Source of the DNA: Levilactobacillus cerevisiae
GTDB lineage: Bacteria; Bacillota; Bacilli; Lactobacillales; Lactobacillaceae
Length of the DNA: 64,000 bases
Reading direction: 5' to 3'
Assembly (NCBI RefSeq): GCF_003946245.1
Contig: NZ_RHNN01000022.1
Coordinates: 1-64,000 of the forward strand
Position 1 is the first letter of the stretch. Each line of letters begins with the position of its first letter. Position numbers and translations under genes: made by a program. Positions 1,480 through 34,813 of the stretch are shown piece by piece. The notes below the pieces were generated by a model. It searched no databases, was not told the origin of the DNA, and saw only the letters and a program-made list of their open reading frames with translations.

Positions 1480-1643
1480 GCCAGAGATGCAGGCAGCTGT
1501 GACGACGGCGTTAGCTGAGTGATCTGCTCAGGTTACGCCGTGGGACGCGTTTGGAGACCGGTGCTCTTTACCGGGCTTCAAACCGAGCCGGAGGACCGCT
1601 CCTCAGGCCGCAGGCGGTCCCCACAGCAGCCGGAATCTCTGGC
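1480..1643 (+). repeat. Family A structured element, copy A1
   Basis: Imperfect palindrome closed by GCCAGAGAT (1480-1488) and ATCTCTGGC (1635-1643). Inside are hairpin P2 (ACGGCGTTAGCTGAG pairing with CTCAGGTTACGCCGT), hairpin P3 (GTTTGGAG with CTTCAAAC) and hairpin P4 containing GGACCGC and CAGGC, then the conserved CCCACAGC. The order matches the other family A copies although the stems differ in sequence. It lies 3' of adhE. A short open frame across it is judged non-coding. Confidence 0.7.
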
Positions 1644-1724
1644 AGCCGCAGGTGGCAAATTTCGCCTAATTTTATGGCTTGAATCTCTGTTAGCTGGGCC
1701 GTGCAACTTCTTTGGGATTTTACG

Positions 1725-1760
1725 TAAAAAAGCTAGCCGGCAGTGATGCACCGGCTAGCT
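1725..1760 (-). terminator. Rho-independent terminator of adhE
   Basis: Near-perfect hairpin AGCTAGCCGG / CCGGCTAGCT with a ten-base loop, followed on the minus strand by T6, 15 bases after the adhE stop codon. Confidence 0.85.
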
Positions 1761-1774
1761 TCACAGGTCAGACG

Positions 1775-4393
1775 TTATTTTTCAACGTTCTTCCCGTCAT
1801 ATTCATCAATCATGATTTGCTTCAATTCGGAAACGAGTGGTTCGCGTGGGTTAGCGGTCGTGCATTGGTCTTCGAAGGCCAGTTCGGCTAATTTGTCGAC
1901 GGCTTTATCGAAGTGGGCCTTGTCTACGCCGTTCGCCTTCAAGCTCAAGGTAACGTCAACTGAGTGAGCCAAGTCGATAATCTTGTTGACTAAGGCTTCC
2001 TTCAGTTCTTCCTTGGTCGTTCCTGGCAAGCCGAGGTAGCGCGCGATTTGCGCGTAGTCTTCGTCAGCCCGGAAGTATTCGTACTTAGGCCACATGGTCA
2101 GCTTCGTTGGTTCCTTGAAGTTGTAACGGATCACGTGTGGCAAAGTGATGGCAATGGCTAAACCATGAGGCAAGCCAAATTCCCCACCCAGTTTGTGGGC
2201 GATTGAGTGGTCAACCCCGAGGAAGGCGTTGGCAAATGCCATCCCGGCCAGCGTTGACGCGTTGTGCATTTCTTCTCTGGCAGTGATGTCGCCGTTGTAA
2301 GAGTTGGTCAGGTTGTCCATCACTAATTTAATAGCTTGCAGAGACCATGGCCGCGTGTAATCTGACGCCATGTTTGACACGTAGGATTCGATGGCGTGGG
2401 TCAAGACGTCCAGTCCAGAGTAAGCAACGGTCTTCTTAGGAACCGTTTCGATAAACTGGGAGTCCACGATTGCCACGTCAGGGGTCAACGCGTAGTCGGC
2501 CAGTGGGTATTTCACGTGGGTCTTGGAGTCGGTGATCACGGAGAATGGCGTGACTTCAGAACCAGTCCCAGAGGTCGTTGGAATCGCAACGAATTGGGCC
2601 TTGTGTGGCTTGTTAAACTTGTAAGCCCGCTTCCGGATGTCCAAGAATTTCTGCTTGGCGCCGAAGAAACTTGCTTCTGGGTCTTCGTAGAATAACCACA
2701 TGTTCTTGGCGGCATCCATGGCGGAGCCCCCACCTAAAGCAACGATCGTGTCAGGCTTGAACATCCGCATCTGTGTGACCCCACGGTTAACCGTGTCGGT
2801 CGTTGGGTCGGGTTCAACGTCGGAGAACAGGGAGTATTCGATGCCGTCTGGTTGGCGCTTCAGTTCGTTCAGCACCGTATCGATGTAGCCCAATTCAACC
2901 ATCGCTGGGTCGGTCACCAGGAAGACACGCTTGATGCCAGGCATGTCGTCGAGGTAACGGACGGACGTCTTTTCAAAGTAAACTCGAGGTAATTTAATCC
3001 ACTGCATATTATTTCGCCGCTTTGCAATCGTTTTGATGTTCAACAGGTCAAATGAGGAAACGTTATGGGACACGGAGTTCTTACCCCATGAACCGGTACC
3101 TAAGGTCAATGAAGGCACCATTTCGTTGTAGAGGTTCCCAATCCCACCAATGGCGGATGGCGTGTTGACCAGTACCCGGCTAGCCTTCATCTTGATACCA
3201 AATTCGGTAGCTAAATCGTCGTCCATGGTGTGGATGGCAGCCGTATGGCCCAGCCCACCGAAGTGTAGCAGTTGGTCACAGAGGTCAAAGGCATTTTCCT
3301 TGCTGGTCGCCTTGTAAACGGAGATCATTGGGCATAACTTTTCTTGAGACAGTGGGAACTTAGGACCAACGCCGGTGATTTCAGCAGCGAGCACCTTGGT
3401 GTCAGCTGGAATCTTGATGCCGGCCATGTCAGCGATTTTCTGAGCGGACATCCCGGGAACGGGGCCCTTAACGCCGCCTTCTGGCTTGAACATGGCTTCG
3501 GCTAAGGCCTTTTCGTCACTCTTCTTAATGAAGAAGACGCCGCGGTCTTGCATTTCTTTCTTGGTTTCCGCGTAAATTTCGTGGTCGATGATGGCACTGT
3601 TTTCAGAAGCACAGACCATCCCGTTATCAAACGTCTTGGATAAGACGATGTCGTAAACGGCCCGCTTGATGTTGGCCGTCTTTTCAATGTAGGCTGGACC
3701 GTTACCAGGACCGACCCCTAAGGCTGGCTTCCCGGTTGAGTAAGCGGCCTTGACCATGCCAGGACCACCGGTAGCCAAGACGCTGGCAACCATGGGGTGG
3801 TTCATCAAAGCAGTAGTGGCTTCGATGCTGGGCGTTTCAATCCAGGAAATAACGCCTTCAGGTGCACCAGCGGCGATGGCAGCGTCGCGAACAACTTTGG
3901 CAGCCATGACGGATGACTTCTGGGCTTGTGGGTGAAAGGCGAAGATGATTGGGTTCCGCGTCTTCACAGCAATCAGCGACTTGAACAACGTGGTTGACGT
4001 TGGGTTGGTAACGGGGGTAACCCCAGCTAAGATCCCCAGTGGTTCAGCAACGGTAATCAGTTGACGTTCGTGGTCATCCTTGATGATGCCGACCGTCTTA
4101 TCTTTCTTGATTGAGTGCCAAATTTCTTCGGTCGCAAACATGTTCTTGATGGCTTTGTCTTCCATAACACCCCGACCAGTTTCGTCGAAGGCCGCCTTGG
4201 CCAACTCCATGTGGTGGTCCAGCCCAGCAATCGCCATTTGATGAACGATGTGGTCAACCTTTTCTTGGTCGAAGCTGTCCATCGCACATAAAGCGTCGTG
4301 GGCTTTAGCAGTGAGGCGGTCGATCATTTGGTCCACCGTTTCATTGCTTTCTACTTTTTTAATTTTTGAATTTTCTTTCACGTCTTTTAACAT
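1775..4393 (-). CDS. adhE: Bifunctional acetaldehyde-CoA/alcohol dehydrogenase
   Basis: 872 residues, the usual AdhE length. Residues 1 to about 440 are a CoA-acylating aldehyde dehydrogenase with the catalytic Cys in VCASENS near residue 257. Residues from about 460 are an iron-dependent alcohol dehydrogenase with GGGSAMDAAK, an SGTGSE motif and the metal-binding His cluster around DHSIAHKLGG and PHGLA. It reduces acetyl-CoA to ethanol through acetaldehyde in the cytosol, reoxidising two NADH, a main electron sink of heterofermentation. AdhE oligomerises as spirosomes in other species. The gene is monocistronic with a terminator. Two Rex-like boxes and a cre-like site lie upstream, fitting control by NADH/NAD ratio and sugar. 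Confidence 0.97.
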   Translation of the reverse strand: MLKDVKENSKIKKVESNETVDQMIDRLTAKAHDALCAMDSFDQEKVDHIVHQMAIAGLDHHMELAKAAFDETGRGVMEDKAIKNMFATEEIWHSIKKDKTVGIIKDDHERQLITVAEPLGILAGVTPVTNPTSTTLFKSLIAVKTRNPIIFAFHPQAQKSSVMAAKVVRDAAIAAGAPEGVISWIETPSIEATTALMNHPMVASVLATGGPGMVKAAYSTGKPALGVGPGNGPAYIEKTANIKRAVYDIVLSKTFDNGMVCASENSAIIDHEIYAETKKEMQDRGVFFIKKSDEKALAEAMFKPEGGVKGPVPGMSAQKIADMAGIKIPADTKVLAAEITGVGPKFPLSQEKLCPMISVYKATSKENAFDLCDQLLHFGGLGHTAAIHTMDDDLATEFGIKMKASRVLVNTPSAIGGIGNLYNEMVPSLTLGTGSWGKNSVSHNVSSFDLLNIKTIAKRRNNMQWIKLPRVYFEKTSVRYLDDMPGIKRVFLVTDPAMVELGYIDTVLNELKRQPDGIEYSLFSDVEPDPTTDTVNRGVTQMRMFKPDTIVALGGGSAMDAAKNMWLFYEDPEASFFGAKQKFLDIRKRAYKFNKPHKAQFVAIPTTSGTGSEVTPFSVITDSKTHVKYPLADYALTPDVAIVDSQFIETVPKKTVAYSGLDVLTHAIESYVSNMASDYTRPWSLQAIKLVMDNLTNSYNGDITAREEMHNASTLAGMAFANAFLGVDHSIAHKLGGEFGLPHGLAIAITLPHVIRYNFKEPTKLTMWPKYEYFRADEDYAQIARYLGLPGTTKEELKEALVNKIIDLAHSVDVTLSLKANGVDKAHFDKAVDKLAELAFEDQCTTANPREPLVSELKQIMIDEYDGKNVEK

Positions 4394-4478
4394 TCTTATG
4401 CCTCCATTTTTGAAAACACCTTGTTAACTTCTTCACGAGATATATCATATCATGATTTTGAAATTCCGCAAGCCCTTT

Positions 4479-4496
4479 TTGTTAAAATTATCACAA
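4479..4496. promoter_or_regulatory. Rex-like operator upstream of adhE
   Basis: TTGTTAAAATTATCACAA matches the redox repressor consensus TTGTGA-N6-TCACAA except at one core position in the left arm. It lies 86-103 bases before the adhE start. Rex control of adhE is well established in Gram-positive bacteria; here it is inferred from the motif. Confidence 0.65.
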
Positions 4497-4550
4497 TTAA
4501 TTCGTTCGCCTGCTTAACCCTATCGCAGCAGTACTTACAGCTGTCTGAAA

Positions 4551-4564
4551 TGTAAGCGCATACA
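4551..4564. promoter_or_regulatory. cre-like CcpA site upstream of adhE
   Basis: TGTAAGCGCATACA fits the catabolite-responsive element consensus TGWAANCGNTNWCA at all but one position. It lies about 160 bases before adhE, between the two Rex-like boxes. Confidence 0.5.
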
Positions 4565-4596
4565 TGCTCGTCAAAACTTTTTCACGGTAAATAAGG

Positions 4597-4614
4597 CTGT
4601 GAATTAAATCACGA
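4597..4614. promoter_or_regulatory. Second Rex-like box upstream of adhE
   Basis: CTGTGAATTAAATCACGA has the TGTGA-N6-TCACA form with one mismatch in the right arm. It sits 118 bases upstream of the first box. Confidence 0.4.
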
Positions 4615-4799
4615 CCCAACCTTTTCATTTTCATAGTTAGCCGTAAAAACAGGCTAACCACAAGAAATTTTATGCAGCGGTTCCGGCAGTTAACGAAGCA
4701 GAAGCAAACATTCAGCTATTTTCTTGCCTGGCATCCCCAGGATTATGCTAAAGTAGTAGTTATGGAAGCCCTTTATTCTTTCAGGCATAAGTATAGAAA

Positions 4800-4995
4800 G
4801 TTTAAGGCGGCGAGGAACATGGTAACCTGCAAATCACATTACTCAGTGGTACGAAGCAAGCTTGAAGCCCGCCTTAGGTTCCGGGCGGCCACCACAGCCT
4901 GACGACCAACACAACTACCATAACCATCCCCACCAACCAAGGACCAACGGCAGAAAACGTTCAGAAACAAATATCCGCCACGGTATCATCAACGG
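4800..4995 (+). repeat. Degenerate upstream copy of the tandem family A unit
   Basis: The segment keeps the P4-like remnant (CTTGAAGCCCGCCTTAGG, then CACAGC) and, at 4939-5000, the linker that also separates the two good copies downstream. It appears to be an older third unit of the same tandem array. No coding potential is evident. Confidence 0.4.
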
Positions 4996-5206
4996 ATCCG
5001 TGTCAGCCGCAGGGGTGTTGAAAATAGGTTAAGCCGTGGGAGTTATCTTAGCGGCGGGGGCTTGGCCGCTTAGATAACTGGTAGCTTTGTGACACGCCCC
5101 TAAGTGGCACAAAGCTAAGCCTGAAGACCGCCTTCCAAGCTTCGGGCGCCCGCCCACAGCGTTCCGACCTATTTTCAACGCCCCGGAGGCGGAAGCCGCC
5201 ATCAAC
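4996..5206 (+). repeat. Family A structured element, copy A2a (tandem unit 1)
   Basis: Outer stem GGGGTGTTGAAAATAGGTT (5012-5030) pairs with the segment at 5166-5184. P2 is AGTTATCTTAGCGGC with GCCGCTTAGATAACT, P3 is AGCTTTGTG with CACAAAGCT, and P4 holds GAAGACCGC. CCCACAGCG closes the core. The unit repeats almost identically 282 bases downstream. Confidence 0.75.
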
Positions 5207-5277
5207 CAAACACACCACCCTAAGGACCAACGGCAGAAAACGTTCAGGAACAAATATCCCCCGCGGTATCAGCAATG

Positions 5278-5488
5278 ATCCGTGTCAGCCGCAGGGGTGT
5301 TGAAAATAGGTTAAGCCGTGGGAGTTATCTTAGCGGCGGGGGCTTGGCCGCTTAGATAACTGGTAGCTTTGTGACACGCCCCTAAGTGGCACAAAGCTAA
5401 GCCCGAAGACCGCCTTCCAGGCTTCAGGCGTCCGCCCACAGCGTTCCAACCTATTTTCAACACCCCGGAGGCGGAAGCCGCCATCAAC
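5278..5488 (+). repeat. Family A structured element, copy A2b (tandem unit 2)
   Basis: Near-identical to the copy 282 bases upstream. The outer stem GGGGTGTTGAAAATAGGTT pairs perfectly with AACCTATTTTCAACACCCC over 19 bp, whereas the first copy has two changes in its right arm. It ends about 30 bases before the ribosome binding site of the glycerophosphodiesterase gene, so it would lie in or just before that gene's leader. Confidence 0.75.
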
Positions 5489-5534
5489 ATAACCAAAATA
5501 CATAAATATTTGTTACTGAAAGGAGTTGAGGACT

Positions 5535-7328
5535 GTGCAGGCATGGCAGTTCTGGCGGGACGCAACCCGTCACTTTTTCCGACACTGGGGCAGCTACGTC
5601 ACCCTGGTCTTCGTCACCAATCTAGTCATAAGCTACTTAGCGGTACCCGCCTTCACCTGGCTGACGGCGGCGCTGATGCAGTGGCAAAACGTGCCCTACG
5701 TGTCGTACACCAACATCGGCGCGATTGCTCTGAACCATCCCATCGCCATCATTGGCTTATTACTAATTTTATTAGCGGTCGTCACCCTGATCTACTGGCA
5801 ATTTGCCTACCTATTGCTGGGGATCATTAACATTCGGAACGGCCGGCCAGAAACGACCCGGGCCGTGCTGGGCGACACCGTGCGCAGTATCGCCGGCGCT
5901 TCACCGAGCACGTTCCTCTTCTTTATTGGCTACTTCATTATTATCATTCCGTTTGGGAGTGAATTGTTTACGACGCCGCTCCTCAACAAGGCAAAAATTC
6001 CGGCGTTCATCGTCAGCTACCTGATGGCCAATCCCATCTGGGCGGTGCTCATGGCCATTTTTTACGTGGTTGCGGCCTACCTGGGGATTCGACTCATTGC
6101 CGTGTTACCGTTGATGATGATCGACCACTACCACAGCCGCGAGGCCATTCGCCTGAGTTGGCAGCGGACCCGCCGCAATTTTTGGAACTACTTTAGCAAA
6201 ATTATTGTGACGTTGGTGCTGGTCAGTATCGCCGTCTTTATCATCTACGCGGCGCTGTACCTGGGGCAGTTGCTGTTTGATAAGACCCACTTCGGCCTGA
6301 TTGCGGCGACCGCCAACCTTTTCTTAATGGAAGTTATTACGGAATTTATCGTCTGCTACTCAACGGTGCTGTTCATGATGGTCATCCTCAGCAGTCACGA
6401 CGCCCACCAACGGACGCCACTCTCCCTGTTTAGTTTCCGCGAGCCAGCGAAGACCAAGCTGCGGACCCGACTCCTGATTACGAGCGGACTGGTCATCATC
6501 AGTGCCGCGTTGGTTGGGTTTAACCTGATTTATCTAAATGGCCTCGCCATGAGTAAGCCCCTGACGATTGCGCACCGGGGCGTCGACAACGGCAACGGCG
6601 TGCAGAACACGATTCCGGCCATGGTCAAGACCAGCAAGGAAAAGCCAGACTACGTGGAAATGGATATCCGGATGACCAAGGATCACCAGTTTGTGGTCAT
6701 GCACGATGCCAATTTGAAAGCCCTGGCCAACATCAATAAGTCCGTGTCCAAAATGACGCTGAAGCAGCTGACCCAGGTGACCGTCACCGAAAACGGCTAC
6801 CAGGCCAAGGTTCCCAGCTTCAACCACTACCTGAACACGGCAATCAAGCACCACCAGAAATTACTGATTGAAATCAAAACGGGCGGTGCGGATACCAAGG
6901 ACCTGCCCGAGCGCTTCTACCGGCAGTTTGGGAGCCGGATCATGGCCAACGGCGAGCAGGTGCACACGCTCAGTTATAAAATTATGAATAAACTGAAAAA
7001 AGAGCACCCGCAGCTGTTTGTCAGCTACATCATGCCCTACAACCTGACGTTCCCGCAAACCCGGGCCAACGCCTATACCATGGAATCCACGACCTTGAAC
7101 GACACCTTTATCGATCAGGCCGACCGCGAGCATAAGAAGGTTTATGCTTGGGATATTGATACCGTCACCAATTTGGACCAAATGATGTTCATGGGTGTCA
7201 ACGGCGTCATCACCAACAACCTGTCCGTGATTCAACAAGAAATCAAGGACAACACGGATCATCCGAGCTACGCCAACTTACTTTTGACGTTTATGAATGA
7301 TTTGTCGTTGGAGACGCAGACGCAATAA
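5535..7328 (+). CDS. Membrane-anchored glycerophosphodiester phosphodiesterase
   Basis: The GTG at 5535 is preferred: GAAAGGAG (5518-5525) lies nine bases before it, but directly abuts an in-frame TTG at 5526. About 597 residues. The N-terminal half has several hydrophobic segments (GDPD-associated membrane domain). From about residue 343 comes the catalytic GDPD domain with HRG, EMDIR and MHD motifs; the usual Glu of the first motif reads Gln (VQNT). Such enzymes hydrolyse glycerophosphodiesters, or lipoteichoic-acid-type polymers outside the membrane, to glycerol-3-phosphate. The real substrate cannot be read from sequence. Terminator follows. Confidence 0.88.
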   Translation: MQAWQFWRDATRHFFRHWGSYVTLVFVTNLVISYLAVPAFTWLTAALMQWQNVPYVSYTNIGAIALNHPIAIIGLLLILLAVVTLIYWQFAYLLLGIINIRNGRPETTRAVLGDTVRSIAGASPSTFLFFIGYFIIIIPFGSELFTTPLLNKAKIPAFIVSYLMANPIWAVLMAIFYVVAAYLGIRLIAVLPLMMIDHYHSREAIRLSWQRTRRNFWNYFSKIIVTLVLVSIAVFIIYAALYLGQLLFDKTHFGLIAATANLFLMEVITEFIVCYSTVLFMMVILSSHDAHQRTPLSLFSFREPAKTKLRTRLLITSGLVIISAALVGFNLIYLNGLAMSKPLTIAHRGVDNGNGVQNTIPAMVKTSKEKPDYVEMDIRMTKDHQFVVMHDANLKALANINKSVSKMTLKQLTQVTVTENGYQAKVPSFNHYLNTAIKHHQKLLIEIKTGGADTKDLPERFYRQFGSRIMANGEQVHTLSYKIMNKLKKEHPQLFVSYIMPYNLTFPQTRANAYTMESTTLNDTFIDQADREHKKVYAWDIDTVTNLDQMMFMGVNGVITNNLSVIQQEIKDNTDHPSYANLLLTFMNDLSLETQTQ

Positions 7329-7340
7329 GCACAGTCATAT

Positions 7341-7381
7341 AAGCGCGTAACGACTTGAAATGCGGGTCGTTGCGCGCTTTT
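7341..7381 (+). terminator. Terminator after the glycerophosphodiesterase gene
   Basis: Hairpin AAGCGCGTAACGAC with GTCGTTGCGCGCTT, ending in TTTT, 12 bases after the stop codon. Confidence 0.8.
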
Positions 7382-7484
7382 GGATTGCTCGGCAGTAATT
7401 GTCTCGTGGTAAGCGCAGGCTATTCCTTCGACAATGCCTGGCCAAGCCAGTATGCTTAGCTTATTTATAGGAGGAGGTTTCAGG

Positions 7485-7760
7485 ATGACACCCAAGACGC
7501 GCACAATTTCAGTTAGAGTTACCGCCGATCTCAAGGAACGGGCCCAAAAACAGTTAGCCAGGCAAGGACTCACCCTATCAGCGTTCATTCGTCAATCCTT
7601 GATTGTGGCGGCTAACAATGAAGTGGTTAGCTCTGATTTTTACGACTCACCCACAGCCCTAGCAGCCAAAGCGGAAGCCGAGGCCGGTGAAACTGAAACT
7701 ATCGGCTCTCTGCAAGACTTAGGCGACTGGCTGGCAAGTCTTGATGACGCACACGACTAG
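7485..7760 (+). CDS. Ribbon-helix-helix protein, RelB/DinJ-type antitoxin without toxin
   Basis: The ATG at 7485 follows a strong AGGAGGAGG (7469-7478); an upstream in-frame ATG has no such site. 91 residues. Residues 5-50 (TISVRVTADLKERAQKQL, then GLTLSAFIRQSL) fit the RelB/DinJ ribbon-helix-helix fold: a beta strand for DNA contact followed by two helices. The acidic C-terminal part would normally wrap a YafQ/RelE-type toxin. No toxin gene is adjacent on either strand; the next gene is convergent. It may be an orphan antitoxin or a stand-alone regulator. Confidence 0.75.
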   Translation: MTPKTRTISVRVTADLKERAQKQLARQGLTLSAFIRQSLIVAANNEVVSSDFYDSPTALAAKAEAEAGETETIGSLQDLGDWLASLDDAHD

Positions 7761-7792
7761 CCACACTTTAACCTCACAGGCCCCGTCATGCA

Positions 7793-7826
7793 AAAAACAC
7801 CACTCCCCAATCAGGAATGGTGTTTT
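7793..7826. terminator. Bidirectional terminator
   Basis: AAAACACCA...TGGTGTTTT hairpin between two convergent genes, with A-rich and T-rich flanks so that it can work in both directions. Confidence 0.8.
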
Positions 7827-7828
7827 CA

Positions 7829-10788: not shown

Positions 10789-10855
10789 CTTCCCCGTTAC
10801 CTCCATTTCCTTTGATTTGTTCTTGTGGGTTAAAACCGTCCGCCTCCGGGAGGGT

Positions 10856-11152
10856 GAAAATAGGATCGGATCGCTGTGGGCGACCCGAAGCCTAAACTGA
10901 TTGTGCTGACCGTTCCCGGCGGCGAGTTCAAGGTGCCCTGCTGTGGGGCCCGGCTCCAGCCTGGGGTGCGGTCTTCCACCTCGACTTGAAGTCTCACTGA
11001 GAACCGTGAGTCTCCAAGGTCGTCCCATGGCCTAAGCTGAGAAAATCACTCAGCTAATGCCATCGACACAGCTGGGCACCTTGACTCGCCTCTGGTCACT
11101 CACAGGGATCATGCCAATTTTTGTCGAGGTAACTGGCGCTGATCCTATTTTC
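10856..11152 (-). repeat. Family A structured element, copy A3 (nested)
   Basis: An outer palindrome (GAAAATAGGATC at 10856 with GATCCTATTTTC at 11141-11152) encloses a second complete element, 10921-11090, closed by GGCGAGTTCAAGGTGCCC and its near-complement. On the minus strand the inner unit shows P2 (TTAGCTGAG...CTCAGCTTAG), P3 (CTTGGAG...CTTCAAG), P4 with GGAAGACCGC and CAGGCTGG, and CCCACAGC. The outer arm carries its own GCTGTGGGCG. This looks like one element inserted in another, upstream of the P-type ATPase gene. Confidence 0.7.
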
Positions 11153-12732: not shown

Positions 12733-12963
12733 GGGCTGGTGAAAATGAGACCGTAACGCTGTGGGCGAACTGAAACCCAAGTTGGGCGGTCATTGCCGTT
12801 CCCGACGGCGAGTTCAAGGTGCCCTGCTGTGGGGCCCGGCTCCAGCCTGGGGTACGGTCTTCCGCCTCGACTTGCTGGGCACCTTGACTCGCCTCTGGTC
12901 ACTCACATGGGTGGCTTGAGTTTCTTTGAGCTGATAGAGGAGCGGTTCTCATTTTCACCAGCT
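12733..12963 (-). repeat. Family A structured element, copy A4 (nested)
   Basis: The outer stem GGGCTGGTGAAAATGAGACC pairs with the segment at 12943-12963 (GGTTCTCATTTTCACCAG). Inside, 12807-12893 is a second unit closed by GGCGAGTTCAAGGTGCCC and its near-complement, which on the minus strand keeps P4 (GGAAGACCG...CAGGCTGG) and CCCACAGC but has lost most of P2 and P3. Same nesting as copy A3. Confidence 0.7.
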
Positions 12964-13083: not shown

Positions 13084-13209
13084 TTACATATCATTTTATA
13101 AATCTCGTCATGTCGGCTAGACGCAATCCCACTTGTCCAACCACACCACGGTGCAATCCGCCAACTCAAACAAGTGCTGCCACCAACGCACAGTCATAGC
13201 CGCAGGAAG

Positions 13210-13366
13210 CCAGGGACGGAGCCAGCTGTGTCGAGGGTGTTAGACCGAGCGATATTCTCGGCCTTACAGCCTGGGGCAACCTTTGAGACGTGGTTTGTGG
13301 CTCAAAGTTGAGATGGAAGCTCGCCTCTCAGGCTGGAACCGACCTCACAGCAGGCGGAGTCCCTGG
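13210..13366 (+). repeat. Family A structured element, copy A5
   Basis: Closed by CCAGGGAC and GTCCCTGG. Contains the conserved CAGCTGTGTCGA, P2 (TTAGACCGAG...CTCGGCCTTA), P3 (CTTTGAG...CTCAAAG), P4 (ATGGAAG...CTCAGGCTGG) and CTCACAGC. Stem sequences differ from the other copies; the order is the same. Confidence 0.65.
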
Positions 13367-13450
13367 AAGCCGGAACCTCAGCAACCCCCACTTCAGGAAC
13401 AGCTATTGCGTTCACCACAAGCTGCCAGACTAGCACAACATCAGCCGTGA

Positions 13451-13606
13451 GGGCGAGAAAAATGGACTCAGCCGGGGGATTCTGCGAGTGTTCTGCTTGC
13501 AGAATGGCGACTTTGAGACGTGCTTTTCGGCTCAAAGCGAGCTGGAAGACCGCTTCTCAGGCTTTCAGCGTCCTACCCCCAGCGTTCCAGACCATTTTTC
13601 TCGCCC
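13451..13606 (+). repeat. Family A structured element, copy A6
   Basis: Perfect 15-bp outer stem GGGCGAGAAAAATGG / CCATTTTTCTCGCCC, with P3 (CTTTGAG...CTCAAAG) and P4 (CTGGAAGACCGC...CAGGCTTTCAG) inside, then CCCCAGCG. It lies 20 bases after the stop of the yjeM-like permease, so it would be in its 3' untranslated region. It is separate from copy A5, 85 bases away. Confidence 0.7.
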
Positions 13607-13626
13607 GGTAAGGCGCACGCGGAGAG

Positions 13627-16500: not shown

Positions 16501-16593
16501 ACAGCAAAGTGCCTCACCCCAACAAAAAAAGAGCAACCGGCGCCTGCCAGTTGCTCTCCCGTAAGATATTAGTAAGTTTCTTGTTGAACCTCT
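16501..16593 (-). pseudogene. Duplicated 3' end and terminator of the 29.3-kb gene
   Basis: About 93 bases are nearly identical to 29247-29340: the last codons of that gene (reading EVQQETY, stop) plus its terminator hairpin GAGCAAC...GTTGCTC (16531-16556) with its A7 tract. Upstream of the last codons the similarity stops abruptly. This is a detached copy of a gene tail, made by recombination or left by loss of a paralogue. Confidence 0.7.
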
Positions 16594-16718
16594 TGGAATT
16601 CCCTCTTCAATCCACAAATTTTACAGTGCCAACTGCCATCTAAACCGTTGACCCACGCTACAATCTGTGATGTTCCTGATGACGCTTAACCCCAAAGACC
16701 ATCTCACTAATACTAAAT

Positions 16719-28160: not shown

Positions 28161-28198
28161 AGGTTCAGCTCCTTTACTTTAACGAATGGCTTCTAGCA

Positions 28199-28437
28199 AA
28201 ATCTCATCCGGAATCACGGTCAAATCAGACCGGTCCAGGTGGTCGACCAACCAGTTCTTGTAGTTGCTGATGGCGAATTTCCTCCAAATTTCAAAATCTA
28301 TGTACGCGCATTCTCTTCAAAACTTCCATACGTCATTTCATTGTCACCTGATTCCGCTAGAGTTATCCCAGCCTCAGCGTTCATCAAGTCTTTTTGTCCA
28401 CTGACGCTTAACTGTTCAAAAACTAGGGCTACTTTTC
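28199..28437 (-). pseudogene. Frameshifted remnant of an unidentified gene
   Basis: Two minus-strand frames join into one plausible protein tail. The upstream part reads VFEQLSVSGQKDLMNAEAG and on to YGSFEENA. After a frameshift near 28310 the next frame reads FEIWRKFAISNYKNWLVDHL and ends in LTVIPDEILLEAIR with a TAA at 28199-28201. The composition is protein-like and differs from chance frames. The start is missing. No family recognised. Confidence 0.4.
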
Positions 28438-28536
28438 AAGGGACATTCCCACAATAAAGACAAAATGTAGTGCTTTATGCAGTGCATATTATCTGAACTT
28501 TTTTACTTAAAATTGTCTTCCAGGAGGTGATTAAAA

Positions 28537-28719
28537 ATGGCATTCAAAATTCGAAAGGATCGCAAAGAAACTGTTAACAAAACTGTTCGATTTCCGCTGG
28601 AACTGGTAGAAAAGATTGAACACGCTATCGAAGGTGAGGACGTCACTTTTTCAACCTTTGTTATTCAGGCTTGCGAATATGCACTTGATAACATGGAAGA
28701 CGACAAAGACAAACAGTAA
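28537..28719 (+). CDS. Small ribbon-helix-helix protein, YlcI/YnfO-like
   Basis: 60 residues, ATG after AGGAGG. The sequence FKIRKDRKETVNKTVRFPLE then LVEKIEHAI and FSTFVIQACEYAL is a compact Arc/MetJ-type ribbon-helix-helix conserved in Lactobacillales and streptococci. It should dimerise and bind DNA; targets are unknown. It stands alone with its own terminator. Confidence 0.82.
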   Translation: MAFKIRKDRKETVNKTVRFPLELVEKIEHAIEGEDVTFSTFVIQACEYALDNMEDDKDKQ

Positions 28720-28840
28720 GAATCAATTGTTTAAAGGCTTATACAAATAATATCGCAATACAATTAGCAATGCAATATGTATCACGCCTTATTTTTGTAT
28801 TTTATAGTCTAAATCTTTGCCTATTCCGTTAATTAAGACA

Positions 28841-28874
28841 AAAAGTCATCTAAATTAAGCCTAGATGGCTTTTT
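28841..28874 (+). terminator. Terminator after the ribbon-helix-helix gene
   Basis: AAAAAGTCATCTA pairs with TAGATGGCTTTTT across a nine-base loop, about 120 bases after the stop. Confidence 0.65.
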
Positions 28875-29059
28875 ACATATAGCTTCAGGACATTCATTTT
28901 TGCTCCGAGTCGGGCACGCGATAGCTATTCTTAGACCACAAGCGCCTGGCGGTGTCCAGCGGCTACTCAGCTTAGCTGACCGGAAACAACATCCAAGTTA
29001 ACTTAAGAAGATAATTACCAGCGGAATTTTTATGCCGCCCTCTTAGTGCTTTTCAAAAA

Positions 29060-29107
29060 AATAAGAATCCAGACCTGGTATTTCTCCAGACTTGGATTCC
29101 TATTTTG
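29060..29107. terminator. Hairpin, possible bidirectional terminator
   Basis: GAATCCAGACCTGG pairs imperfectly with CCAGACTTGGATTC, flanked by AAAATA and TATTTT. No gene ends right next to it; the nearest are the small ribbon-helix-helix gene and the 29.3-kb gene. Confidence 0.4.
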
Positions 29108-29265
29108 CTTGATGCCCGATTTACAATTGAAGTTGATGCGCATGAGTTCCTTGAAGCGTCAAGTCTTCTAAACTTTTGGACGGACTTTTTGAACAGCCAT
29201 GTTCCCATATTATTTCTGCTAATTTTCTCGTCTCTGCTTCAGCTCAGCAAAACGCCTCAGCCCAA

Positions 29266-29299
29266 CAAAAAAAGAGCAGCCAGCGCATGCCAGTTGCTC
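29266..29299 (-). terminator. Terminator of the 120-residue hypothetical gene
   Basis: GAGCAGC...GTTGCTC hairpin with a T7 tract on the minus strand, 12 bases after the stop. A near-identical copy occurs at 16523-16556. Confidence 0.75.
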
Positions 29300-29311
29300 T
29301 CCCGTAAGATA

Positions 29312-29674
29312 TTAGTAAGTTTCTTGTTGAACCTCATGGTTGACGATCTTTTCGTCCAAGACTTCAGCCAACTTTTGTAAGCCGGCGTCACGGGTCTTGA
29401 CGATATCCATGTTGAAGATGATGGAGTCAATGTCGCCGCCATCAAAATCAAATTGTTCGAAATAGACGTAAGGATCGTGGTCTTCATCGTCTTCTAAGAA
29501 ATGCTTCATAACAGCATCAGATAAAGCGGTTGCCCATTCTAAACCTGCCATCTTTGGTAAATCTTTCTTCGTCACATACCCCGGATCAAGAACCAGCTTA
29601 GCCGCTTTTTCCACGTCTTCTTTAGGAATTACTACGGTCGGTTTCTTTGCATCTTTCTTTGGTGTATCTGCCAT
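29312..29674 (-). CDS. Hypothetical acidic cytosolic protein
   Basis: ATG at 29674 follows AAAGGAG at nine bases; the longer frame upstream is unlikely. 120 residues, Lys/Pro-rich start (TPKKDAKKPTVVIPKED), then an acidic helical part with HFLEDDEDHDPYVYFEQFDF. No signal peptide, membrane segment or known motif. Part of its 3' end is duplicated at 16.5 kb. Function unknown. Confidence 0.65.
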   Translation of the reverse strand: MADTPKKDAKKPTVVIPKEDVEKAAKLVLDPGYVTKKDLPKMAGLEWATALSDAVMKHFLEDDEDHDPYVYFEQFDFDGGDIDSIIFNMDIVKTRDAGLQKLAEVLDEKIVNHEVQQETY

Positions 29675-29757
29675 AATCAAAATCTCCTTTGATGTTTCTG
29701 ACTTCAGTCTAGTCCTTTTTGGGGCAAACGTTAAGTATTCCATGCCACTTGCGTTAG

Positions 29758-30161
29758 TTATCTGGTCAAATGGTCCGCCGGTAAGGTCACTTTTGGCCAA
29801 AACTGTTCGGTGGGGGTTAGACTGAGTGAAACCGATGTCCCCGAATTCGCGGTCGCAGTTGTTTGCCGCGCCGACTGATTGCGGTCATAGTCATCGTAAA
29901 CGAAGACGTTTTCTACTATAGAATTAGCCACCCCACCAGTAACTTCGTTCGCAAGTCTAATTTGCCTGGGCCTTCATTTAAAATTCGCGTCAGAACAAGC
30001 TTTTCCGTCGGTCACTGACCAATTCCCCCGCCACTGAGCAACCAGTACCCCGGCGTCACCGTCCGGTTAAATCCCGCTGCCACGCAAATTTGGTGGAAAT
30101 CGCAATAATTTTGTCGTGTTCGGTTGCGTCGGGCCGCCAGAAAGGGTAAAATTTGCTTCAA
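29758..30161 (-). pseudogene. Two short frames, probably a decayed gene
   Basis: Minus-strand frame 30012-30161 (TTG start, AGGGGGTGA just before) encodes 49 residues ending VTPGYWLLSGGGIGQ. A second open frame, 29761-29973, with no good start, reads NEVTGGVANSIVENVFVYDD and ends in LTPTEQFWPKVTLPADHLTR. Both look protein-like. They may be pieces of one or two lost genes. No family recognised. Confidence 0.3.
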
Positions 30162-30193
30162 TTCACCCCCTGTGAAAAGGCGGTGAGACGCGC

Positions 30194-30199
30194 TATAAT
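30194..30199 (+). promoter_or_regulatory. Predicted -10 box of the CNNM/CBS transporter gene
   Basis: TATAAT, 36 bases before the GTG start. A matching -35 box is weak. Confidence 0.45.
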
Positions 30200-30234
30200 G
30201 AAGAGATAGAAATATATGAAATGAGGAATGATGT

Positions 30235-31641
30235 GTGGATAGCGGTCAGATAGTTGTAAATCTAATTATTATTTTAATTACCTTCTTTTTTGCAGCTTTC
30301 TTTGTTGCCTGCGAGTTTGCTTTGGTCCAAACCCGGCCTAGTGCCCTGGAGGAAAAAATTGCCGAAAGAGACAAGCCCTCGGCCAAGCTGAATCGGGCCA
30401 TGAAAATGGTCACCAATTTAAATGAATATTTATCGACGACTCAAGTGGGGGTTTCCCTCGCCGGAATCATCTTAGGGTGGATTGGGGAAACGTTCTTCGT
30501 TGACCTCCTGCTCGGCGGGATCGCGCCCGCCCACCTGAACAACGCCACGGCCCACACCATTGCAGTGATCGTTGGTGTGCTCGTGTTGACTTACCTCGAA
30601 GTGGTCTTCACGGAAATCGTGCCCAAAAACATTTCCATCGATATGCCAATGAAGGTCTTAATGTTAGTGGTCACGCCGCTGCATTACTGCCACGTCCTCT
30701 TCTACCCGTTCGTTTGGCTGCTCAATAGCAGTGCGACCGGCGTGGTTAAATTGATGGGCCTGAAAGTGGCCAACGAAAGTGACGAAGTTTTCTCTCAAGC
30801 TGAAATTTTAAACCTTTCCAGAAGCGCCGTTGCCGGTGGTGAGCTGGAAAAGAATGATTTGATTTATATGCAACGGGCGTTTGAGCTGAATGATAAGGTT
30901 GCCAAGGATATCATGATCGACCGGACCCAACTGATCGTCATCGACATCACGGCCAACGTCAAGGAAGCCCTGAACGTTTACCTGCAAGAACGCTTTAGCC
31001 GGTTGCCGGTGGTGGCCGACGGCGATAAGGACAAGATTCTGGGTTACGTGTACAATTACGACTTGATTCGTCAGCAGCAGGTGGATTCTCACGTGCGGAT
31101 TGATAAATTAATTCGAGATATTTCCACGACACCAGAAACGACGCCGATTACCCAAGTGCTCCAGCAAATGATCAAGAAGCGGACCCCAATCGTGGTCGTC
31201 GTTGACGAATACGGTGGGACGTCTGGGATCATTACGGATAAGGATATTTATGAAGAACTGTTCGGAACCGTCCGTGATGAAATCGACGACGCCAACGATC
31301 AGTACATCTTCAAGCAACCCAATGGCACGTACCAGGTCAACGGGAAGATGACGACTTACGACTTTGAGCGCTACTTCAACACCGACATCAAAGGCTTTGA
31401 GGCCTCCGATACGGTCACGATGGCTGGGTTTATCATCGATAATTACCCGGACGTCAAGGTCAACGACGTCATCCAATTGAAGAACTTCGACTTGAAGATT
31501 CTGGATTACGAAAACTCCTTTATCAACTGGCTGGAAGTCACGGTCAACCCGCCACAGAAACAGATCACCACGACGGATGACGATGATGACGACAGTAAGA
31601 AAAAGGACAAACACGATAAACACGACAAGAAAGATAAGTAA
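30235..31641 (+). CDS. CNNM/CBS-domain transporter (HlyC/CorC family)
   Basis: 468 residues from a GTG start. Residues 1-200 are a DUF21/CNNM membrane domain with four helices, about 215-335 a CBS pair (FSRLPVVADGD; VVVDEYGGTSGIITDKD), and about 350-435 the CorC/HlyC C-terminal domain. The tail is Asp-rich then Lys/His-rich (DDDDDDSKKKDKHDKH). These proteins are linked to magnesium export or homeostasis; the old name hemolysin is misleading. Single gene with terminator. Confidence 0.9.
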   Translation: MDSGQIVVNLIIILITFFFAAFFVACEFALVQTRPSALEEKIAERDKPSAKLNRAMKMVTNLNEYLSTTQVGVSLAGIILGWIGETFFVDLLLGGIAPAHLNNATAHTIAVIVGVLVLTYLEVVFTEIVPKNISIDMPMKVLMLVVTPLHYCHVLFYPFVWLLNSSATGVVKLMGLKVANESDEVFSQAEILNLSRSAVAGGELEKNDLIYMQRAFELNDKVAKDIMIDRTQLIVIDITANVKEALNVYLQERFSRLPVVADGDKDKILGYVYNYDLIRQQQVDSHVRIDKLIRDISTTPETTPITQVLQQMIKKRTPIVVVVDEYGGTSGIITDKDIYEELFGTVRDEIDDANDQYIFKQPNGTYQVNGKMTTYDFERYFNTDIKGFEASDTVTMAGFIIDNYPDVKVNDVIQLKNFDLKILDYENSFINWLEVTVNPPQKQITTTDDDDDDSKKKDKHDKHDKKDK

Positions 31642-31647
31642 CGTGAT

Positions 31648-31686
31648 AAAGCCAGCACTCGAGAAATTTGTGCGCTGGCTTTTTTC
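31648..31686 (+). terminator. Terminator after the CNNM/CBS gene
   Basis: AAGCCAGC, 17-base loop, GCTGGCTT, then T6, directly after the stop. Confidence 0.8.
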
Positions 31687-31751
31687 GTTTAGTGGTAACG
31701 GCGATGGCGTTTATGCTAAACTACAGGTATTCGAGTCAAAGGAGTGCCGAC

Positions 31752-32750
31752 ATGAAAAATATTACAATCGCTGATGTCGCCAAGGCCGCTGGCGTGTCAG
31801 TCACGACGGTTTCGCGCTACATCAACGGCAATTTTAAAAAAATGAGTGATGCGACCAAACAGCGCGTCCAGCAAACCATCAGTGACCTCAACTACGCACC
31901 GAAGGCCTCGGCCCGCAAGATGCGCCAGGAACACAGCCACATGATTGGTGTCGTTGTAGGCGATATCGCTAACGTCTTCTCTTCCCTATTGTTCAAGGGC
32001 ATCTACGACGTGCTCCAACCGGCCGGTTATGACGTGTTGCTCATGAACTCCAACAACTCACTGGAAACCGAACAGGCCGAATTGACGCGGCTCTTCACCC
32101 AACAGGTGGACGGACTCATTCTCCAACCTAATGCCAAGTCGTTTGCGCCCTACGAATCCATTTTGACAGCGCAATTGCCCATGGTCCTGGTCGACCGGGA
32201 AACGTTGGACCAGCCGGATACCGTGGCCAAGGTGGTGTCGAGCAACTTCGATGCCAGTTACCATTTAGCGTTAGAGCTCGCCCAAAAAGGCTATCAGCGC
32301 GTGATTACGGTCAGCCGGACGCTGGCTGAAGTGTCTGGTCAGTCCAAACGAATTGCCGGCTTTTCTGCGGGCGCCGAGCAGTCTGGCCAACAATTTTTCA
32401 ATCTGGAAACCGCCCACCAAAGTCGCGAGTGGCTTGAAGAACATCTCGTCCAGCAAATAGAAGAGCATCCGGAAAAAACCGCCGTGATTTCTTTGATGGG
32501 GCCCGTTCTCTTTGACCTGTTGGCGATTATCAAGTCAGATAAAATCGTTATTCCCTATGACTTTGGCCTCGTCAGCTTTGACGACTGGAGCTGGTCGCAG
32601 TACGTGAACGATGGCATCTTCTTGCTGCACCAACAACCGGAACTCATGGGTCAGGTGGCGGCCGAGAAGCTCCTGCAACAGATTCAGCGCACACCGATTA
32701 GTACGGCCACCTATATTCCGGTCGAAACGATTTCCAAACCTTCTATTTAG
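31752..32750 (+). CDS. LacI-family transcription regulator
   Basis: ATG at 31752 after AAAGGAG. 332 residues. Residues 4-25 (ITIADVAKAAGVSVTTVSRY) are the LacI helix-turn-helix, followed by the hinge and a periplasmic-binding-like sugar-sensing core. It is convergent with a KduD-like dehydrogenase, whose promoter holds a perfect LacI-type palindrome. The pair resembles KdgR with KduD of uronate/2-keto-3-deoxygluconate metabolism, so KdgR-like control is a reasonable inference. No autoregulatory copy of the palindrome was found at its own promoter. Confidence 0.9.
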   Translation: MKNITIADVAKAAGVSVTTVSRYINGNFKKMSDATKQRVQQTISDLNYAPKASARKMRQEHSHMIGVVVGDIANVFSSLLFKGIYDVLQPAGYDVLLMNSNNSLETEQAELTRLFTQQVDGLILQPNAKSFAPYESILTAQLPMVLVDRETLDQPDTVAKVVSSNFDASYHLALELAQKGYQRVITVSRTLAEVSGQSKRIAGFSAGAEQSGQQFFNLETAHQSREWLEEHLVQQIEEHPEKTAVISLMGPVLFDLLAIIKSDKIVIPYDFGLVSFDDWSWSQYVNDGIFLLHQQPELMGQVAAEKLLQQIQRTPISTATYIPVETISKPSI

Positions 32751-32755
32751 ATGAC

Positions 32756-32798
32756 AAAACGGTTTAGCCTGCTTTACGCGCGCTAAACCGTTTTTATT
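32756..32798. terminator. Bidirectional terminator between lacI-type and SDR genes
   Basis: AAAACGGTTTAGC pairs with GCTAAACCGTTTTT, starting six bases after the regulator stop and serving the convergent dehydrogenase gene as well. Confidence 0.8.
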
Positions 32799-32875
32799 CT
32801 TTTTCAGCGAAAGTTGAATAGGTAGGAGCACTTAGTTGTTGCCGTGATCCATGTAGGCGTACGGTAAGCCGGCAA

Positions 32876-33649
32876 TTACCGCAACAAATACCCGCCATCC
32901 ACTGGCAACATCACGCCGGTCACGTAATCCGACGCCGCGCTGGCCAAGAAGACCATCGGCCCCATCAACTGGTCGGGAACGCCCCACTCGCCGGACGGAA
33001 TGTGGTCCTTAATTTCTGGCCCACGCACGGGATCTTCCTGCAGCGGCTTGGTCATGTCCGTGCTGATGTAGCCCGGCGCGATGCCGTTGACCTGAATGTT
33101 GTAGGGCGACAGCGCGTCCGCGTACGCCTTGGTCAAGCCCATCACCGCGTGCTTGCTGGCGGTGTACGGGAAGATGAATTTACCAGCCCGGTAGGATTGC
33201 ATCGACCCAATGTTGATGATCTTGCCGGATTTTTGCTTGGCCATTTCCTTAGCCGCCGCGTGGGATAGAAAATACAGCGCGTTCAAATTCAGGTCAATGA
33301 CCTTCTCCCAGTCCGCATCCTTAAAGGCCAAAACGTCATTGCGCAGCTGCATGCCAGCATTGTTGATCAAGATGTCGAGGTGACCAAAGCGCTTCACTGC
33401 CGCCGCAACCAGTTTGTCCGCACAGCCGGTCTCGGTAATGTCCTGCTGGCAGAATTCCACCTGCTGGCCATTGGCCGTCACCGCCTGCTTAAGGTCGTCC
33501 CAGCCATCTGTCGAATTGCTGACAACGAAAATATCAGCTCCATATAGGGACAGTGCCAACGAGTAGTACTTCCCCAAACCATGGGCGCCGCCGGTAATCA
33601 GAGCGACCTTACCTTTTAGTGAAAAACTGTTTGCGTTAAATTTTGTCAT
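32876..33649 (-). CDS. Short-chain dehydrogenase, KduD/gluconate 5-dehydrogenase-like
   Basis: ATG at 33649 with AAGGAG nine bases upstream. 257 residues. Rossmann motif TGGAHGLGK near residue 20, NNAG near 93, catalytic Ser in IGSMQS, and YTASK. The MQSYRAG and GYISTDMT segments are typical of 2-dehydro-3-deoxy-D-gluconate 5-dehydrogenase. It would interconvert 2,5-diketo-3-deoxygluconate and 2-keto-3-deoxygluconate with NAD(H). No other uronate genes are in the window. Confidence 0.87.
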   Translation of the reverse strand: MTKFNANSFSLKGKVALITGGAHGLGKYYSLALSLYGADIFVVSNSTDGWDDLKQAVTANGQQVEFCQQDITETGCADKLVAAAVKRFGHLDILINNAGMQLRNDVLAFKDADWEKVIDLNLNALYFLSHAAAKEMAKQKSGKIINIGSMQSYRAGKFIFPYTASKHAVMGLTKAYADALSPYNIQVNGIAPGYISTDMTKPLQEDPVRGPEIKDHIPSGEWGVPDQLMGPMVFLASAASDYVTGVMLPVDGGYLLR

Positions 33650-33728
33650 TATTTTAAACTCCTTAGTTAGGCTCAGCATCGCTAGTCGGCCGTTGACTGG
33701 CAGCGATTACATTTGCATTTTTAAAAGT

Positions 33729-33744
33729 GGTGTATCGATACACC
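33729..33744. promoter_or_regulatory. LacI-type operator before the KduD-like gene
   Basis: GGTGTATCGATACACC is a perfect 16-bp palindrome with the central CG step typical of LacI-family operators, 80 bases before the start codon. The convergent LacI-type protein is the obvious candidate to bind it. Confidence 0.65.
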
Positions 33745-33791
33745 CAAGAGTATACCCACACTTTTACTACCTGTCAAACCGGTCACCACGC

Positions 33792-33826
33792 AAAATAAAA
33801 CCCGTAAGCCAGACCGCTCACGGGTT
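33792..33826 (-). terminator. Terminator of the small membrane-protein pair
   Basis: Minus-strand AACCCGT...ACGGGTT hairpin followed by TTATTTTG, 40 bases after the second gene's stop. Confidence 0.65.
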
Positions 33827-33866
33827 AATGCACCATTATTAATTTTATGTACGTCCTCACTTCACC

Positions 33867-34046
33867 CTATTTAGACCGTACGAGGCCCTTAACCAAGTAG
33901 AACACGCCGCCCCAGAACAACAGGAAGCACGCCCACCAAAAAACGCTGGTCAGCCGAAAAGGTAGAATATTCCAAATCATTAAAAACATAATTAAGAGTC
34001 CACTCCAGAAATCCAGTGAATGGACAAAACGTCGATTAAATTGCAT
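33867..34046 (-). CDS. Small membrane protein (second of a pair)
   Basis: 59 residues from the ATG at 34046, preceded by an AGGGGGA-type site. It reads MQFNRRFVHSLDFWSGLL, then two hydrophobic helices around a short loop (FRLTSVF), and a basic tail ending VRSK. Its pattern (basic start, FWSG/FWGG, two helices, basic end) matches the gene nine bases upstream, so they are likely paralogues in one transcript. Function unknown. Confidence 0.65.
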   Translation of the reverse strand: MQFNRRFVHSLDFWSGLLIMFLMIWNILPFRLTSVFWWACFLLFWGGVFYLVKGLVRSK

Positions 34047-34055
34047 GAGTTCCCC

Positions 34056-34253
34056 CTATTTTTGCCGATGCCCGGTCGTCAGAAACATGCCCCGTGACAG
34101 TTCGTAAACCCCAACAATGACCAAAACGCCCGAGATAATCCACTCAAACACACTGGACCCGGTCAACGGCGAAAAGCCCCAGCCACTCAAAACCAAGGCG
34201 ACGATGCCACCCCAAAAATTTGAAGAACGATAAAATTCTTTATTAAACGTCAA
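34056..34253 (-). CDS. Small membrane protein (first of a pair)
   Basis: 65 residues from a TTG start. NKEFYRSSNFWGGIVALVLS, a loop SPLTGSSVFEW, then a second helix (ISGVLVIVGVYELS) and a basic end GHRQK. Two-helix hairpin topology. Similar in layout to the following gene. No known family. Confidence 0.65.
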   Translation of the reverse strand: MTFNKEFYRSSNFWGGIVALVLSGWGFSPLTGSSVFEWIISGVLVIVGVYELSRGMFLTTGHRQK

Positions 34254-34360
34254 ACCAATCCCGCCTTCCCAACTTACTACTAAGTTCTATTCTATCACTA
34301 ATGGTCAGGGGATTAACTAGCAATCATTGACACGTCCGCGAGATAGCGGCAGACTGGAGA

Positions 34361-34480
34361 GTGGGACAAAAGGCGGTTAGCTGGCGAGCATTAAGGCTGA
34401 TAGCCGAATAATCCTGGTTTTGGATTGTTCGGCTATCAGTTTTAAGCGGAGCCAGCTGCCTTTTGTCCCACGTTTCGGCA
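34361..34480 (+). repeat. Family B structured element, copy B1
   Basis: Outer stem GTGGGACAAAAGGC / GCCTTTTGTCCCAC, second stem AGCTGGC / GCCAGCT, inner hairpin CTGATAGCCGAATAATCC / GGATTGTTCGGCTATCAG. Unpaired motifs GAGCATTAA, TTAAGCGGAG and the trailing CACGTTTCGG are shared by all copies. Confidence 0.8.
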
Positions 34481-34641
34481 ACGTAGCTTCGAAGAGAAAA
34501 CAGTTTGACTTTTAACCGTCTGGCTTACCATTCGCGGACTACATCAATTCCTCCATTGACAACTACATACGGACTCGCTACAGAGGGATTAGCCACCAGT
34601 CAAAATTCCCACCATCCACGGGCCAACGCCGTATCAGCGAA

Positions 34642-34813
34642 GGGCTGGTGAAAATAGACTCAGCCGTGGGAATTTCCTAAGTGGCGAGCCCTTCGCCGCT
34701 TAGGAAATTGGTCGCTTTGAAACTCGCCCCACAGAGGTTCAAAGCGAAGACCGAAGACCGCCCTTTGGCTTCGGGCGTCCGCCCACAGCGTTCCGGTCTA
34801 TTTTCACCAGCCC
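34642..34813 (+). repeat. Family A structured element, copy A7
   Basis: The cleanest copy: a perfect 18-bp outer stem (GGGCTGGTGAAAATAGAC with its complement at 34796-34813), P2 ATTTCCTAAGTGGCGA with TCGCCGCTTAGGAAAT, P3 GCTTTGAA with TTCAAAGC, P4 CCGAAGACCGC...GCTTCGG, then CCCACAGCG. It lies about 70 bases before the AEC transporter start and causes a spurious N-terminal extension of that frame. Confidence 0.8.

Follow-up and report, generated by a model that had tools for sequence, protein, structure and literature searches.

Selection on a folded strand underlies a structured element of about 200 nt that recurs in a 64,000-nucleotide stretch of the Levilactobacillus cerevisiae genome (contig NZ_RHNN01000022.1, positions 1 to 64,000; hereafter the window). 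This conclusion is well supported by covariation, by a tolerance of G-U over A-C combinations and by conserved mismatches. We interpret the element as a non-autonomous interspersed repeat with a Lactobacillales small RNA as its core, a reading to which we give an even chance. One fold shared by several subfamilies with different stem sequences, a location at gene borders in which the 3′ end points to the gene, and gain or loss between close species all speak for it. The fold may act as RNA or as single-stranded DNA.

Copies of the element in the window

Two covariance models were used to locate the element. Model R1 was built from 41 type A copies of the window's own genome (3.38 Mb in 82 contigs), three of which lie in the window (5033-5160, 5315-5442 and 34663-34789); its training alignment took 41 of 45 copies and excluded four that were truncated or in tandem. 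Model R2 comprises 69 sequences, none from the window source. The original prediction described a shared multi-hairpin family at eight sites. Profile searches with R1 and R2 recovered the full structured element at seven of these, R2 returning the same seven matches as R1 (64.9-109.1 bits) and nothing more at E<=0.001, while the site at 12733-12963 proved to be a broken, nested copy. The variants of hairpin P3 listed in that prediction are present in the sequence. The sites are as follows.

1470..1656, forward strand: type C element, core 1496-1627 with outer arms on both sides; R1 43.9 bits (E 3.4e-9), R2 86.0 bits
5005..5191, forward strand: type A element, first of a tandem pair, core 5033-5160; R1 113.8 bits (training copy), R2 100.5 bits
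5287..5473, forward strand: type A element, second of the tandem pair, core 5315-5442; R1 117.6 bits (training copy), R2 106.8 bits
10839..11152, reverse strand: type C element between remnants of a type A element, core 10940-11072; R1 33.0 bits (E 2.4e-6), R2 81.6 bits
12733..12963, reverse strand: broken type C element nested between type-A-like ends, not a full copy, part of the core missing; no R2 match at E<=0.001
13199..13383, forward strand: type C element, core 13225-13351; R1 24.0 bits (E 5.3e-4), R2 64.9 bits (E 1.2e-13)
13441..13615, forward strand: type B element, core 13471-13583; R1 71.3 bits (E 2.6e-16), R2 83.7 bits
34636..34820, forward strand: type A element, core 34663-34789; R1 117.2 bits (training copy), R2 109.1 bits

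The two members of the tandem pair are 96% identical across 217 nt, and the broken site at 12733-12963 contains a 79-nt stretch 96% identical to 10910-10988 of the neighbouring type C element. Upstream of the tandem pair, element-like letters at 4807-4898 gave a very weak R1 match (10.4 bits, E 1.8), possibly a decayed copy.

A four-way-junction fold under selection

The element consists of a core of about 125 nt within a palindromic outer stem. The 41-copy alignment folds into an outer stem P1 of 18 pairs, an inner stem P1b, formed by GCCGUGGG/CCCACAGC in the 41 own-genome type A copies, and a four-way junction with hairpins P2, P3 and P4. The 18 pairs of the outer stem, with 97.7% of cells paired, constitute terminal inverted repeats of the kind that characterises a miniature inverted-repeat transposable element (MITE). 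Irregularities within the stems are kept: a C.A or C.C opposition in P1b is unpaired in all 41 copies, a U.U in P2 is unpaired in 39 of 41, P3 carries an irregularity, mostly an A.G mismatch, in 40 of 41, and P4 has a bulged A in 41 of 41. What had been described as a TTAG step of P2 corresponds to the U.U case, a CUUAG/CUUAG helix containing this mismatch. Loop and junction letters are conserved among type A copies, most of which have an internal loop of GCA opposite GGA outside P1; in type B the outer loop is GUGA opposite GGUAA. By R1 score and sequence, 115 copies separate into groups A, B and C of 37, 23 and 55. Stem sequences of B and C differ from those of A, with the same fold. Since the 41 aligned copies were collected by BLAST with a single A copy as query, all of them belong to subfamily A. 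For one copy (L025:626-809), RNA folding gave a z-score of -10.56, with none of 200 shuffles equally good.

Among the 41 type A copies, 98.5% of 2,459 cells are paired against a shuffled mean of 89.8, 33 of 60 pairs change on both sides (15.9 when shuffled), and double-change cells number 234 (63.0 when shuffled). The covariation score of 0.321 compares with 0.145 for shuffled alignments and 0.045-0.066 with slid partners; none of 500 shuffles reached the observed covariation. Parsimony on a FastTree tree assigned 131 double changes and 60 single ones from one standard pair to another, with a further 33 changes to non-standard pairs; slid-partner controls gave 28-35 double changes of any kind among 338-367. 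Across the 69 sequences of R2, which span subfamilies, genera and streptococci, 41 of 42 pairs vary on both sides and double-change cells number 658 against 193 shuffled, in an alignment that was fitted to the model and hence is biased towards its pairing. The covariation anticipated from the few window copies is thus strong in both alignments and did not fade in the larger one.

Wobble pairs point to one strand. G-U cells outnumber A-C cells by 120 to 13 in type A copies, and by 54 to 11 outside columns where G-U is the majority; over all types the counts are 140 and 48, with ratios of 6.7, 2.3 and 1.9 for A, B and C. When copies were split by orientation relative to the facing gene, leaving aside 13 of 121 rows that lacked context, the ratio was 2.9 in sense and 3.4 in antisense copies. 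Since these are alike, the constraint appears tied to the strand of the element itself and not to the mRNA. The earlier proposal of selection on structure therefore holds, on the covariation, the 120 to 13 excess and the conserved mismatches together. Its wording, RNA or cruciform DNA, stands as far as a folded strand is concerned; given that G-U is tolerated over A-C on a single strand, double-stranded cruciform DNA is less likely on its own. Single-stranded DNA also tolerates G.T pairs, so that the acting form may be RNA or single-stranded DNA.

Copy number and distribution

At least 150 R1 matches occur in the source genome (150 of 1,311 candidates scored). Twenty stretches at fixed positions held 59 copies in 400 kb which, with the window's seven, correspond to about 480 per genome. 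Stretches picked partly for hits, together with the window, held 115 copies in 464 kb (121 R1 rows less four opposite-strand echoes and two doubtful hits), which extrapolates to about 840. Pooling both sets gives about 680. The genome thus carries roughly 500-800 copies, some 3-5% of its length at about 200 nt each.

Within the genus, R1 matched 32 of 35 genomes; of the three congeners without an R1 match, one (G004) has a single weak R2 match. Searches of more than 40 genomes used stricter filters and scored few candidates per genome, so that the following counts are lower bounds. R1 matched 56 of 301 genomes and 10 of 40 genera in the family. R2 matched 44 of 345 genomes and 11 of 79 genera in the order: 20 Lactobacillaceae, 20 genomes of a group labelled g43 (one to four matches each), one of group g51 (eight matches) and three others with one near-threshold match each. 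In the class, five of 200 genomes matched, every one inside the order. Stretches with the element pattern, for the 80 listed of 107, all came from Levilactobacillus species or Lactiplantibacillus mudanjiangensis. Carriage by phages, plasmids or viral contigs was considered and rejected: a distant blastn search of phages and plasmids with one type A copy found no match, nor did a search of viral contigs with one element pattern. Among the open-licence PMC papers that our searches listed, titles and abstract openings contain no description of this repeat in Lactobacillaceae, and the excerpts available to us of PMC2267715, of PMC10969869 (which has no lactobacillus terms) and of the L. brevis CD0817 genome paper (PMC6534642) do not describe it.

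A shared core with the streptococcal small RNA SSRC8

No Rfam family matched the sites at gathering score over the whole window, and at E<=1 over window positions 1-36000 only two unrelated weak matches appeared, both elsewhere. A known Rfam family at these sites was therefore rejected, and the simple repeat or terminator family that might have accounted for them did not emerge. RF02616 (SSRC8_2) is included in this result, as the window copies do not reach its gathering score or match it even at E<=1 in 1-36000.

The link comes from other genomes. R1, trained on own-genome copies only, found one match in each of four g43 genomes (E 1.2e-6 to 1.4e-5), and these four loci match SSRC8_2 at 46.4-53.4 bits (E 1.5e-12 to 2.5e-10), below the gathering score of 72. 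In another g43 genome (locus L265), a full SSRC8_2 match of 92.3 bits, above gathering, encloses the R2 core. Judging by these matches, g43 is presumably Streptococcus. R1 and R2 matches thus coincide with SSRC8_2 matches, and the element and SSRC8_2 have a homologous core, sharing its fold and the letters GCCGUGRGG, GGUA-N-UUUGAGAC..GGCUCAAA and CGUCCGYCC. They differ in that SSRC8_2, a small RNA of 281 nt, carries a terminator of its own, whereas the window elements show no promoter signal, and in number, with one to four R2 matches per g43 genome against several hundred copies in this Levilactobacillus.

In Streptococcus pyogenes, SSRC8 is expressed, by Northern blot and circular RACE, and is much lower in late stationary phase, according to the part of PMC3675131 available to us; its homologs in other streptococci there span roughly nt 149-247. 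Because this interval corresponds to the element core, SSRC8 itself may be one member of a dispersed family. The retrieved streptococcal loci do not all lie at one genomic place. At three of them (L243, L245 and L246), the relative lies downstream of a gene that we take to be helicase-like and is followed by a gene beginning MNEIKCPNCGE, with an intervening terminator-like hairpin; at L244 the neighbours are others. The original prediction had set RNA structure and a MITE against each other. This was a false choice, because a proliferating, high-copy dispersed repeat shares its core with an expressed small RNA.

Polarity towards genes

Gene calls were made with our own open reading frame (ORF) scorer (77% coding) in place of annotation. 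After removal of four copies overlapping a gene call and five without a called gene on one side, 106 of the 115 R1 copies were retained; a fresh set of 56 came from 59 R2 rows of the fixed-position stretches, less three overlapping a gene call. Of these 162 copies, 146 have the 3′ end closer to a gene than the 5′ end, irrespective of the direction of that gene (93/106 in the first set and 53/56 in the fresh stretches). This also held for sole copies in a gap (36/41 and 19/20). Among gaps with several copies, the arrangement <> occurred 13 times and >< never in the first set (29 gaps), and the 16 such gaps in the fresh stretches contained no ><.

The 146 copies with the 3′ end nearest face 71 genes in sense and 75 in antisense, unlike a cis-regulatory leader, which would lie in sense ahead of a defined set of genes. 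Of 44 antisense copies, 20 are followed by a terminator-like site and nine are preceded by one; among control genes, 150/352 have such a site. The sites after antisense copies suggest that many copies probably lie inside transcripts. A promoter belonging to the element found no support, as promoter-like signals showed no excess over random sequence, and none of the 106 elements has a promoter-like signal within it.

Insertion, flanks and turnover

One locus records an insertion at a gene end. Among 15 of the 32 matching genomes compared, G000, G014, G016 and G029 have an element directly after the stop codon of a gene ending ..GCGCAAATCTA(A/G), and the sequence past the element, GTAGATTTGCG, repeats the gene end in inverted orientation. 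In nine further congeners the site is empty; G002 and G013 carry different elements at this position.

When orthologous sites are compared across three species of about 91-95% identity, one element type has replaced another in places, a C lies nested in an A, and deletions have occurred between short direct repeats; a clean insertion with direct target duplication was looked for at the sites compared in G014, G016 and G029 and none was seen. At the place corresponding to 10839..11152, these three genomes carry a high-scoring type A element (109-115 bits). Upstream of a window gene that we take to be AdhE-like, where the window has its type A pair, G016 and G014 have a pair and G029 one copy, all with type B scores (86-92 bits). 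The aligned gaps of G016, G014 and G030 hold no counterpart of the element at 34636..34820. Three further insertion-deletion differences among G014, G016 and G029 are element-free and consist of short ORF-like or unrelated sequence.

Beyond the conserved part, the two flanks of a copy are complementary to each other in a copy-specific manner. At 40-80 nt from the core, z-scores against re-paired controls were -9.0 for 36 antisense copies, -4.7 for 26 sense copies and -2.9 for 39 copies far from a gene. At 80-120 nt they were -0.4 and 0.5 in the two gene-close groups and -2.3 far from genes. Inside coding sequence, an excess was found in antisense (z -3.7, n=36) and none in sense copies (z -0.6, n=26); at least six pairs extend into the gene in 27 of 36 antisense copies. 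The idea that a long inverted copy of the gene makes up the whole 5′ spacer was rejected, since the gene-close complementarity is gone at 80-120 nt; by local alignment just 10 of 101 flank pairs exceed the 99% null.

A candidate mobiliser and known repeats

REP/REPIN elements, which are associated with RAYT transposases, are extragenic palindromes in high copy. The present element resembles them in being a high-copy extragenic palindrome and differs in being larger and branched. RAYT-type Y1 transposases (PF01797, in 23 of 35 congeners) were rejected as mobilisers because their numbers do not follow those of the element: five are present in G011, which has no R1 matches, and none in G002, G003, G017, G018, G020, G026 and G029, which have 47-101 R1 matches.

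BOX, RUP and SPRITE of pneumococcus, as described in the available part of PMC3049150, are likewise structured intergenic high-copy repeats with nesting, enrichment near genes and, for some, no clear enzyme. They are enriched between convergent genes, whereas our element has a fixed polarity to genes of either direction and a copy number several times higher; this likeness is by description only. Correia, ERIC and other bacterial MITEs are palindromic repeats of about 130-200 bp with up to hundreds of copies (711 are quoted for ERIC in the accessible text of PMC10969869); the element differs from them in its four-way-junction core in common with a small RNA and in that no direct target duplication was seen at the loci read.

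Other repeats in the window

The window contains further repeats. A second palindrome dispersed through the genome, about 120-144 nt long and without relation to the element, lies at 34357-34500, 35817-35960 and 47559-47683, with at least 40 forward matches at E<1e-30 in the genome (40 candidates scored). At 45447-45720, a tandem pair of 134 nt (81% identical) has conserved ends like those of this second palindrome. A tandem array with a 20-nt unit (56261-56561) adjoins a 924-aa ORF at 56592-59366, and a 95-nt direct repeat (93%; 16502-16596 and 29245-29339, about 12.7 kb apart) flanks a run of ORFs.

Explanations considered

Our reading of the element as a mobile repeat built on a small RNA suggests a mechanism. 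The plus-strand fold would be recognised by a mobilising machinery, or by a protein partner retained from the small RNA, so that each spreading copy would be under selection for its structure. The palindrome would grow when insertion, or a template switch at a later time, copies the flanking gene end inverted onto the far arm. Self-primed extension of a folded strand (snap-back synthesis) would fit such an inverted target copy, and later template-switch correction could also make one. The retained mismatches argue against correction alone as what shapes the element.

Several observations weigh against this reading. Many type C cells are unpaired under the type A structure, and the type C ratio of G-U to A-C is just 1.9 (52 against 27). 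The excess of double over single changes is an outcome that template-switch correction could also yield. Only at a single locus was the inverted gene-end copy inspected closely; no direct target duplication was found at the loci read, and no mobilising enzyme was found, Y1 transposases failing to track the copies. Promoter-like signals upstream of the element are no commoner than in random sequence (6/42 and 5/51 against 45/400), and a plus-strand transcript of the Lactobacillaceae copies is a prediction. It is equally possible that the homologs in streptococci are relics of the repeat.

Less probable, though a serious contender, is a palindromic MITE moved in trans by a transposase acting on DNA, in which the fold matters just as DNA and the small-RNA likeness is incidental, or SSRC8 is itself such a repeat. 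High copy number, dispersal, palindromic ends, nesting of type in type and presence or absence between species are all as expected of a MITE, as are streptococcal loci at more than one place and, from the portion of PMC3675131 at hand, SSRC8 homology limited to about nt 149-247 in other streptococci. It fits poorly with the Y1 transposase counts, the failure to see a direct target duplication at the loci read, the tolerance of G-U on a single strand and the expression of SSRC8 as an RNA in S. pyogenes (same portion of PMC3675131).

Quasi-palindrome correction by template switching would match the arms to each other without any structural selection. The 131 double against 60 single changes suit it, as do copy-specific arms that continue to match outside the conserved region (z -9.0 and -4.7 at 40-80 nt), partly within coding sequence. 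Such correction should erase mismatches, yet these persist, loop and junction letters are conserved, the fold is retained across subfamilies and streptococci, and copy number is left unexplained; we consider it improbable. That the copies serve the host as regulatory elements in mRNA leaders or trailers, such as stability or attenuation elements, agrees with their place beside gene starts and ends and with the terminator-like sites around antisense copies, and is very unlikely given that about half are antisense to the gene they face, that strand preference is alike in both settings, that neighbours vary between close species and that three congeners have no copies by R1 (the G004 match being by R2).

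Significance

A stronger form of the small-RNA reading, which we advance only tentatively, would make the element a bacterial counterpart of Alu and other short interspersed nuclear elements (SINEs): a small RNA of the SSRC8 kind would have become a spreading repeat of several hundred copies per genome, its folded RNA recognised, copied and inserted in one fixed polarity next to coding-sequence ends, leaving an inverted target copy on the far side. The link ties a supposedly selfish class of intergenic DNA to an expressed small RNA, with the same fold ranging from one to four matches per genome in presumed streptococci to several hundred in Levilactobacillus. The questions of what moves bacterial interspersed palindromes that lack a known transposase, and of whether small RNAs turn into mobile repeats, become testable, and the polarity relative to coding sequences offers a concrete mechanistic clue. 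Our findings suggest that a bacterial genome can be colonised by a small RNA in a manner loosely comparable to the dispersal of Alu repeats in the human genome.

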